A stretch of DNA of 64,000 nt from Neolewinella agarilytica (GTDB taxonomy: Bacteria; Bacteroidota; Bacteroidia; Chitinophagales; Saprospiraceae). The notes under the pieces are model-generated. The model was not told where the DNA came from. It saw only the letters and a list, made by a program, of their open reading frames with translations, and made no database searches. Shown here piece after piece: positions 3-2,272 of the stretch. The stretch is from assembly GCF_900110645.1 (NCBI RefSeq), contig NZ_FOFB01000001.1:62001-126000 (forward strand). The letters run 5' to 3'. The position numbers and the translations under genes are program-made. The first letter of the stretch is position 1. Each line of letters starts with the position of its first letter.

Positions 3-1031
3 GAATGTGGAGACACCCCTCAACTGGACGGAACGGGCAGTTCGCCCGAACCCGGAGGAGACATCATTTACGCCTGGAGTGCGGAGGATGGTGGAGCATT
101 TGTTGGCCGAACAGATGTGGCACGACCATCCGTTACCGGCCCCGGCACCTACCAGCTCATCGTCACCAACCTGAACAACGGCTGTTCGGACACCAGTCGA
201 ACAACGGTCACCCTTGCTGATCAGGAAGCGGCTATGCTGCCCGCCAGCTTCACCACTTGTGAAATCCCGACGGTAGTGGAAGGCAATTTGCCCGCCGGTA
301 CGACGGGAGTCTGGACTTCCTATAATGATGACGGCGCCGTATTCACGGTAGATAACAATCGGGCCACGATTACGGAGTTAGGAGAAGGCATCAACCTGGT
401 CTGGACGCTTTCCGCCGCGGGCTGTCCTGATTACAGTTCTGATTCCCTCCGGGTTTCTCCGGAGGAAGGCCCGACGGCCAACGATGATGTACTTCAAGTG
501 ATCGGCGATGACAACATCGGACAGATTGATCTCTTGCTCAATGATCAACGGACCGGTCCGGTAGAGGTTACCCTGCTGACCGAGCCTGGATTTGGCGAAA
601 TTACCATTGATCTCAATGGCAACATCACCTTTGAATCGCCGTTGGGGCTTACCTCTACTACGACGGTGGATTACGAAGTCTGTAGCACCGTTTGTGAAGG
701 CTTATGTGACCAGGCGACGCTGACCATCCGCGCCAGTGCGGATGGCTCAGACCCGACGGTGTTCAATGCCTTCACGCCAAACGGCGACGGCATGAACGAT
801 ATCTTCGTTTTTGATATCCTCAACCTTCGCCCGGACGAATTCCCGGACAACGAGCTCATCATTTTCAACCGCTGGGGAGACATCCTTTACGAAGCCAAGC
901 CCTACAACAACGACTGGGACGGCACTAGCAATGGTGGAACGCCCGTTCCCGAAGGCACCTACTACTACATTCTGCGCCTGAACGTGGGCGAGGGTGAAAT
1001 CATCCGGGGGGATGTGACGGTGGTGCGGTAG
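3..1031 (+). CDS. gliding motility-associated C-terminal (CHU_C) domain protein, 5' truncated by window
   Basis: The frame is open from the first bases of the window, so the true start lies upstream; the GTG at 117 is internal. The visible 342 residues contain Ig/PKD-like beta-rich segments rich in Thr, Gly and Asp. They end in a typical CHU_C domain: an FTPNGDGMND motif at 774-803, a FNRWG motif, and a YYYILRL strand before the stop. In Bacteroidota this C-terminal domain marks surface or secreted proteins handled by the type IX secretion system. The ligand or role of the upstream part cannot be told. A tandem repeat array begins directly after the stop codon. Confidence 0.9.
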   Translation, partial: ECGDTPQLDGTGSSPEPGGDIIYAWSAEDGGAFVGRTDVARPSVTGPGTYQLIVTNLNNGCSDTSRTTVTLADQEAAMLPASFTTCEIPTVVEGNLPAGTTGVWTSYNDDGAVFTVDNNRATITELGEGINLVWTLSAAGCPDYSSDSLRVSPEEGPTANDDVLQVIGDDNIGQIDLLLNDQRTGPVEVTLLTEPGFGEITIDLNGNITFESPLGLTSTTTVDYEVCSTVCEGLCDQATLTIRASADGSDPTVFNAFTPNGDGMNDIFVFDILNLRPDEFPDNELIIFNRWGDILYEAKPYNNDWDGTSNGGTPVPEGTYYYILRLNVGEGEIIRGDVTVVR

Positions 1032-1149
1032 GCAGGTTGGAGGTTGCAGGTTAGCAGGTTGCAGGTTAGCAGGTTGCAGGTTAGCAGGTTGCAGGTTGCA
1101 GGTTGCAGGTTGCAGGTTGCAGGTTGCAGGTTGCGGGTTGCGGGTTGGA
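1032..1149. repeat. GCAGGTT tandem repeat array
   Basis: The array starts at the first base after the CHU_C stop codon. Three 15-base units (GCAGGTTAGCAGGTT type) are followed by about six 7-base GCAGGTT units that become degenerate (GCGGGTT). It sits between the stop codon and the rho-independent terminator of the upstream gene. No coding function is apparent. Confidence 0.9.
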
Positions 1150-1447: not shown

Positions 1448-1491
1448 CAGCCTACCCGCCCGGATGGCGGAACTGGTAGACGCGCTGGACT

Positions 1492-2215
1492 CAGATTGCG
1501 GCCTTGTTTGCTCATACTTTTTGTTTGTATATTGAAGCATGCGCTACAAATACACAAAACAAGAACTACAAGCCGCTGTTACTGCTTCGTTTAGTATTGC
1601 CCAGGTTTGCAGAATGCTGCAAATTAAAGCTGCCGGAGGAAATTACACTACCCTTAAGCAGAAGTTTAAGGATTGGAACATTGATACTTCCCATTTTCGT
1701 GGTCAAGGATGGAATGTTGGTTTAAAATTTAAGCCGAATCCCAAAAAGCCTTTGTCTGAGATTATGGTGAAGAACTCGAGTTATCAACCTTACAAACTTA
1801 AGCGTAGGTTATTGAAAGAGAAGATAAAGAAACGTGTTTGCGAATCTTGCAAAAACACGAAGTGGTTGAGCGAAGAGATTCCCTTGGAACTTCACCATGT
1901 AAACGGAGATAGACATGACAATAGACTTGTCAATCTGCAATTTCTTTGTCCTAACTGTCATGCCCTCACGGATAACTATCGAGGTAGAAACATTGGGTTG
2001 CCCGGGAAGAAATTCCCGGAGTAGAACTCGTCAAATTCGGTGAACGCTTCAATGGTGACATTGATGCCAATACCGAGCTAAGCCCCACAACACTGCGGGG
2101 AAAGTGTAGAGACTTGACGGCGAGCACCTAACGGCATTCATGCCTATGGTGAAGATAAAGTCCAGACCACAAACGCCAAGGAGCTTAGGCGGCGACGAAA
2201 GTCGTAGATGGTAAG
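1492..2215 (+). ncRNA. group I intron in the tRNA-Leu anticodon loop
   Basis: The intron follows a U (1491) and ends in G (2215), as group I introns require. A guide segment at 1993-1999 can pair with both exons: GGTT with exon-1 GACT (U-G at the splice site) and the preceding TTG with exon-2 TAA (P10). Next is a P2 hairpin CCGGGAA-GAAA-TTCCCGG (2002-2019). The core follows with TCAAATTCGG, GAGACTTGACGG (about 2109-2120), AAGATAAAGTCC (about 2152-2163) and a final CGACGAAAGTCG hairpin. Order and core strings resemble the cyanobacterial tRNA-Leu(UAA) intron (IC3-like) as I remember it. An HNH gene fills the region between the 5' splice site and the guide. Confidence 0.85.
1539..2024 (+). CDS. 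HNH homing endonuclease inside the group I intron
   Basis: The 161-aa protein has an N-terminal helix-turn-helix-like region (residues 5-45) and a C-terminal HNH nuclease. Zinc ligands are C101/C104 and C137/C140, the HNH signature LELHHVNGDRHDN is at about 116-128, and CPNCH at 137-141. Such enzymes cut intron-less alleles and spread the intron. Start is the ATG at 1539, 47 bases into the intron, in the predicted P1 loop. The last 11 or so codons overlap the intron guide sequence and P2, so coding and ribozyme constraints coincide there. It is more AT-rich than most neighbours. The target would be the uninterrupted tRNA-Leu gene (inference). Confidence 0.88.
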   Translation: MRYKYTKQELQAAVTASFSIAQVCRMLQIKAAGGNYTTLKQKFKDWNIDTSHFRGQGWNVGLKFKPNPKKPLSEIMVKNSSYQPYKLKRRLLKEKIKKRVCESCKNTKWLSEEIPLELHHVNGDRHDNRLVNLQFLCPNCHALTDNYRGRNIGLPGKKFPE

Positions 2216-2272
2216 TAAAATCCAGTTTCCATTGTGGAAGTACGGGTTCGATTCCCGTTCCGGGCACGGTAA

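Follow-up and report, generated by a model that had tools for sequence, protein, structure and literature searches.

The locus raises two questions: whether a tRNA-Leu(UAA) gene cut in two by 724 nucleotides is a functional gene that carries a group I intron, and where this intron and the endonuclease encoded in it came from. In the window, by which the whole 64-kb stretch of DNA analysed here is meant, ARAGORN finds no tRNA when run without introns, and with introns allowed it calls a tRNA-Leu(taa) across 1458–2266 with an intron of 724. The initial annotation, which had described a tRNA-Leu split by a group I intron with an HNH gene in a Bacteroidota chromosome, is borne out by the Rfam match, the HNH frame and the Bacteroidota relatives described below, and the two halves do join once the 724 bases are removed (Table 1).

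Table 1. Features of the split tRNA-Leu(UAA) gene, in window coordinates
Feature	Position	Strand	Basis
5' exon of tRNA-Leu(UAA), last base U33	1458..1491	+	sequence, ARAGORN with introns
P1 5' strand: exon A31 C32 U33, then intron C A G	1489..1494	+	read from sequence
Group I intron, 724 nt, terminal G	1492..2215	+	Rfam match, covariation in an alignment of 26 cores
HNH endonuclease gene, 161 aa, in P1 loop; last codons overlap guide and P2	1539..2024	+	frame, PHROG
P1 3' strand / internal guide UUGGGUU	1993..1999	+	by eye; motif GGGUUG in 8/8 U33/U34 introns
P2 hairpin	1999..2023	+	core alignment
P3 5' strand CUCGUC, partner 2119–2124	2027..2032	+	double changes in 4/6 pairs
P4 5' strand, partner 2071–2076	2037..2042	+	core alignment
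Core string GAGACUUGACGGCGAG: P7 5' strand (by eye) and P3 3' strand	2109..2124	+	alignment
Core string AAGAUAAAGUCC with P7 3' strand (by eye)	2152..2163	+	alignment
Last hairpin CGACGAAAGUCG, the final helix; compensatory changes among relatives	2193..2204	+	alignment
3' exon of tRNA-Leu(UAA), first base U34, CCA not encoded	2216..2266	+	sequence, ARAGORN with introns

The group I intron of cyanobacterial tRNA-Leu(UAA) is inserted between U34 and A35. The intron described here interrupts the same tRNA in the anticodon loop and is likewise of group I, but it is inserted one nucleotide earlier, carries an HNH gene in the P1 loop and resides in Bacteroidota; the classical definition of the tRNA-Leu(UAA) intron by its U34/A35 insertion thus does not describe it. 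The site also precedes by one nucleotide that of the other tRNA-Leu introns found in this analysis, whose loci include Bacteroidota tRNA-Leu introns at U34/A35. U33/U34 is the sole junction that restores GGACTTAAAATCC, because a C follows GGACT and a G precedes TAAAATCC, and the placement after U33 with a terminal G, as proposed in the initial annotation, is therefore fixed by the flanking bases.

Rfam Intron_gpI matches positions 1976–2180 with 52.5 bits (cut-off 50, E 1.8e-10); nothing else in the window matches Rfam at curated cut-offs. In the alignment of 26 tRNA-Leu introns, both partners have changed with pairing retained in 37 of the 56 predicted core pairs; P7 lies outside these predicted core pairs and was read by eye. 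The P2 hairpin, both core strings and the closing hairpin noticed at the outset were all recovered in this fold. One of the 37 pairs, in P4, is U-A in exactly the seven U33/U34 rows of the alignment and G-C in the other 19.

A guide able to pair with both exons had been claimed earlier, with no position attached; a guide is supported, and it is situated 3' of most of the HNH gene. By eye, P1 consists of the pairs U33·G1996, in which the U before the 5' splice site is paired with a G, C32-G1997 and A31-U1998, and the terminal G is G2215. A G30·U1999 pair is possible in competition with P2, while the intron bases C A G are able to pair with G1995, U1994 and U1993 (by eye); alternatively, 1993–1995 could pair with U34 A35 A36 of the 3' exon as P10. 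The guide changes with the exon and the site. Beside the GGGUUG of the U33/U34 introns, it is GGGCUG in 29 of 30 fMet introns, where the exon has G31, and GGGCGG in one, and it is UGAGUG in 22 of the 25 U34/A35 Leu introns. One U34/A35 intron (L105) has UGGGUG, the single change that would give U33 a G partner. A candidate guide closer to the 5' splice site, at about 1500, had also been picked by eye; it was set aside because relatives do not conserve it.

The host genome (6.2 Mb, 74 contigs, completeness 100) yielded 49 tRNA matches from 150 of 249 first-look candidates that were scored. Ten of the 49 are at least 80 nt long: Leu TAG, CAG, CAA and GAG, five Ser and one Tyr. When the exons were joined and used as a BLAST query, the host genome gave only the two halves and tRNA-Leu(CAA), and the second intact tRNA-Leu(UAA) that the initial annotation had allowed for is seen neither in this search nor among the tRNA matches. 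UUA accounts for 111 of the 1284 Leu codons in the 29 long frames of the window. Since no other UAA gene was found, the intron would have to be removed, and splicing is predicted to work. That the gene is invisible to ARAGORN without introns could also mean that the two exons are relics of a tRNA which the cell has ceased to produce; this is highly improbable in a genome rated 100% complete in which no other UAA gene was found, and four of the seven intron-bearing genomes of the genus have lost or broken the HNH gene yet retain the core and the exons. Intron-split tRNA genes escape standard tRNA finders, and the cited passages on tRNAscan-SE 2.0 describe 36 genomes with an fMet or Ile2 gene seemingly missing because of group I introns (PMC8450103).

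Intronless alleles, which had been suggested as a check, are common in the genus: tRNA-Leu with the anticodon TAA is uninterrupted in 13 of 21 genomes, split in seven and present in both forms in none, with one genome (55% complete) having neither form. Downstream of occupied and empty alleles alike lie a gene for a small membrane protein, so named by eye, and one for a carboxyltransferase (Pfam Carboxyl_trans). The latter served for a host tree of 14 genomes, five of them with the intron. In this tree, four intron-bearing genomes each pair with an intronless one (G018–G004, 88; G001–G006, 100; G011–G008, 83; G017–G003, 100), while the introns of G001 and G011 are sisters (88.8/100) and their hosts are not. 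This pattern fits repeated gain and loss of the intron. The HNH frame is intact in three of the seven genomes with a split gene, broken in one MAG (L035) and absent in three. A search of the genome contigs for the HNH protein gave three loci, from Lewinellaceae bacterium SD302, Neolewinella aquimaris DSM 105137 and a MAG. In G011, the split tRNA-Leu with identical introns lies on two contigs (L041, L042).

The cyanobacterial source that had been considered for the intron fared less well. Three overlapping samples were searched for group I matches, which are present in 26 of the 120 relatives, in 56 of the 298 genomes from the family and in 30 of the 395 from the phylum. Similar tRNA introns are thus at hand within the family and the phylum, and it is to phages that the endonuclease leads; in this comparison of Bacteroidota introns and phage genes no cyanobacterial donor is required, though a very old transfer may lie further back. 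A tRNA could be assigned to 77 of the 88 intron loci: fMet, with insertion at U33/C34, in 30, Leu at U34/A35 in 25, Ile(CAU) in 12, Leu at U33/U34 in eight (two of them identical copies in one genome) and Arg(UCU) in two. The other 11 are L012, L013, L014, L036, L066, L067, L069, L103, L108, L114 and L116. Among the assigned loci, the U33/U34 Leu site occurs only in seven genomes of its own genus. At the phylum level, ARAGORN gives a split tRNA in 30 of 39 loci, some of them doubtful, and these were kept out of the tree. The introns in tRNA-Arg(UCU) (L039, L120) apparently lie in the anticodon loop, and a split tRNA-Arg(tct) is called by ARAGORN also in another Bacteroidota family (e.g. L154, L157–L159, L161–L163). 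Two high-scoring group I introns, L012 and L013, are situated close to the end of tmRNA, as judged by eye.

A second group I intron is present in the host genome itself, in tRNA-fMet after U33; it is 302 nt long and ORF-less (L001, G000:C37:178881-179091). Elsewhere in this genome, an odd array of tRNAs for Ser, Cys, Ser, Trp, Met CAU and Arg (L010, G000:C27:517200-518800) contains an uninterrupted CAU tRNA that is initiator-like by eye. The U33/U34 intron might be a copy of the genus's own tRNA-fMet intron that jumped into tRNA-Leu: both are inserted after U33, nearly all of both kinds start with CA, their guides are similar (UUGGGYU), and the two introns co-occur in G000, G002, G010, G011 and G017. 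The guide is common to the two, however, because the insertion site is common. The U33/U34 ribozymes form one clade (100/100), and in an unrooted tree of fMet and Leu introns only, the two kinds are split at 88.5/97. At J2/3 the U33/U34 introns have GUAGAAC, which they share with most U34/A35 Leu introns and not with fMet introns. Forcing the U33 Leu introns together with the fMet introns of their own genus is rejected by the AU test (p=0.016) and not by the SH test (p=0.064), and such a recent jump was discarded as a candidate and is considered improbable. The other three tree constraints are mutually compatible on the unrooted tree and settle no sister group. A deeper fMet origin of the U33/U34 Leu introns would be compatible with this tree, which leaves room for it.

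The site may instead have arisen by the sliding of a U34/A35 intron by one nucleotide, or a group I intron may have founded the U33/U34 site separately. A separate founding would agree with the long stem that leads to the U33 clade, with an endonuclease that differs from that of the U34/A35 introns, and with the cited report of tmRNA group I introns at four neighbouring T-loop subsites, one of them reported only in Saprospiraceae (PMC11915505). Those introns likewise occupy neighbouring subsites of one loop, although it is the T-loop of tmRNA, and the few that carry a gene encode a LAGLIDADG enzyme according to the cited passages (PMC11915505). On the other hand, core motifs are common to the U33/U34 and U34/A35 introns, the guides, when aligned by exon position, differ opposite U33 by one A-to-G change, and the U34/A35 intron L105 already has a G opposite U33. 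A separate founding is a possibility of some weight, at less than even odds.

Within the intron, 47 nt precede the HNH gene. Residues 2–152 of its product match positions 5–155 of the 245-position profile of PHROG 10822, a phage HNH (5.9e-45), and the best record with a name is a gene of Dulem virus 42, with 55.6% identity over 94% of the protein. C101, C104, H120, C137, C140 and H141 are invariant in 26 HNH sequences, and Pfam HNH and HNH_3 are below cut-off. The three intact genes give a dN of 0.20–0.25 with dS saturated. The predicted structure (mean pLDDT 85.1, pTM 0.54) would consist of N-terminal helices and a C-terminal part with strands and helices at the HNH motif. Foldseek returned 136 matches to the predicted structure at E<=10, none of them at E<=0.001, and the plasmid collection searched contained no match at E 1e-5.

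A tree of 100 HNH proteins has the three enzymes of U33 introns (99.9/100) and the five of U34 introns (97/100) each in a clade of its own. A 100/100 split divides the two clades, the former lying together with 53 phage HNHs and the latter with 39. Phage L280 and L281 join the U34 intron enzymes (94.8/99). Phage L204, in which the HNH gene lies directly between tRNA-Leu(UAA) and tRNA-Thr, pairs with the U33 intron enzymes weakly (74.7/64), and many inner nodes are likewise weak. Because the two clades are separate and placed among phage HNHs, it appears that tRNA-Leu(UAA) introns gained a phage-type enzyme on two separate occasions; the position of the intron HNHs within the phage diversity suggests the direction from phage to intron.

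Freestanding homing endonucleases are generally found near what they cut. Phage HNHs that lie beside tRNA-Leu would on this ground be aimed at tRNA-Leu, even though adjacency of an endonuclease gene to a tRNA gene is no proof that the gene is cut. Among the matches listed, 41 of the 73 distinct phage relatives of the U33-type enzyme have a tRNA within 200 nt, and the nearest is Leu in 26 (43 and 27, respectively, when open-frame ends are taken as gene limits); after clustering at 60%, these become 25 of 37 clusters, with Leu nearest in 18. When only the 23 clusters that have three or more tRNAs are considered, Leu is the nearest in 16 against 5.2 expected (0 of 20,000 draws), and UAA is nearest in 9 of 36 loci against 2.5 expected (p 0.0002), again among the matches listed. 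For the U34-type enzyme, also among the matches listed, 31 of 36 clusters have a tRNA near, 20 of them Leu; Leu is nearest in 17 of 26 against 4.1 expected, and UAA in 21 of 52 against 3.9. Distances below 0 were counted as 0, ties go by map order, and the counts leave out 24 of 97 phage loci and 9 of 80 as duplicate proteins or for lack of a usable match. The two phage sets overlap in part and draw on 80 of 246 matches (A2 scan) and on the best 80 (A3 scan), so they are neither independent nor complete. For nine of the 73 listed relatives, including some of the closest (L203, 59%; L211, 55%; L212 and L214, 53%), the locus contains no tRNA, and in Dulem virus 42 there is no tRNA within 2.5 kb of the HNH relative. 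In a set of 13 phage records, tRNA-Leu is the immediate neighbour in at least four, four have no tRNA in the stretch, and one has tRNAs lacking an isotype. Of the phage loci, 15 were checked against Rfam, and none of these contains a group I intron at its cut-off.

These neighbours could reflect only that tRNA clusters are hot spots for endonucleases, and would then be uninformative on the target of the intron. A control phage HNH family is indeed also found near tRNAs, within 200 nt in 13 of 21 distinct relatives, but Leu is nearest in 0 of these 13, with Leu tied at an estimated distance of 0 in one locus (L392). The excess of Leu within loci, found for the relatives of both Leu-intron enzymes among the matches listed, also speaks against such an explanation, and so do the relatives of the enzymes from Ile(CAU) and fMet introns, in which Leu is nearest in 0 of 9 loci and CAU tRNAs in 7 of 9. 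Hot spots alone are thus a rather unlikely explanation. The Ile(CAU) introns L072, L077 and L084 encode a further HNH-like protein, unlike the Leu-intron HNHs, which is HNH by eye and for which Pfam gave no family at 0.01; its phage relatives (L360–L363) have a CAU tRNA, that is Ile or Met, within 66 nt in 4 of 4 loci and as the nearest in three. The fMet-intron enzymes of the host family match Pfam PDDEXK_5 and PDB 2ost (E 3.6e-71), the latter of which we take to be I-Ssp6803I. A CAU tRNA, initiator-like by eye in all four cases, abuts four of their five phage relatives, and the fifth contig stops at the match. In Synechocystis, it is the tRNA-fMet intron that carries the homing endonuclease I-Ssp6803I, according to the cited passages (PMC1995217); it is also a tRNA intron with a homing endonuclease, from which the intron described here differs in the tRNA and the endonuclease family.

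The reading preferred here, with a probability of roughly 0.7, is that of a mobile group I intron in the only tRNA-Leu(UAA) gene detected in this bacterium of the Neolewinella group, whose HNH was acquired from a freestanding phage HNH already targeting tRNA-Leu genes. The transcript would fold into a group I ribozyme, with P1 formed by exon A31-C32-U33 and the guide that lies 3' of the HNH gene. Guanosine would attack after U33, and U33 would then attack after the terminal G, to yield the 85-nt tRNA. The HNH protein would cut intronless tRNA-Leu(UAA) genes and repair would copy the intron in, which splits, and hence protects, the cut site. This HNH would have been acquired separately from the other phage-type HNH, found in the U34/A35 introns. 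A phage-type endonuclease in a split tRNA suggests how such mobile introns arise: as the simplest account, we infer that tRNA introns repeatedly took up phage endonucleases which were already directed at the tRNA gene in question.

More broadly, phages and bacterial tRNA introns may share one pool of tRNA-isotype-specific endonucleases, from which the Leu (twice), Ile(CAU) and fMet introns each captured a phage enzyme aimed at the matching phage tRNA, the second enzyme in Leu having come with the one-nucleotide shift of the site. This proposal is slightly favoured. With phage relatives beside the matching tRNA in four endonuclease groups, the idea of capture is open to cutting assays. A related process is collaborative homing, in which, in the two phages described in the cited passages, a freestanding phage endonuclease cuts at the site of an ORF-less intron, and which has been proposed as a route from a freestanding endonuclease to a mobile intron (PMC3984707). 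Unlike in those phages, the present, sequence-based case concerns tRNA genes, bacterial chromosomes and four endonuclease groups, in which cutting is a prediction. Homing endonucleases have also been reported in phage tRNA regions, namely SegB of T4 and HNH genes in tRNA clusters, in passages that draw no link to bacterial tRNA introns or to one isotype (PMC6409571). The passages on collaborative homing and on SegB agree with the placement of freestanding endonucleases near their targets. A literature search by title and abstract opening found nothing on group I introns in Bacteroidota tRNA-Leu, which is weak evidence, as subscription journals were mostly outside it.

Several minor features were also observed. 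Between the upstream frame and the tRNA, repeated GGTTGCAGGTTAGCA-like units are seen by eye at window positions 1031–1145. Phage contigs with HNH relatives also carry GOLLD RNA and tmRNA (L231, 832–1246; L280, 3142–3499). In the uncultured phage L181 (LR745208), five tRNA-Leu genes lie in a row directly beside the HNH relative.
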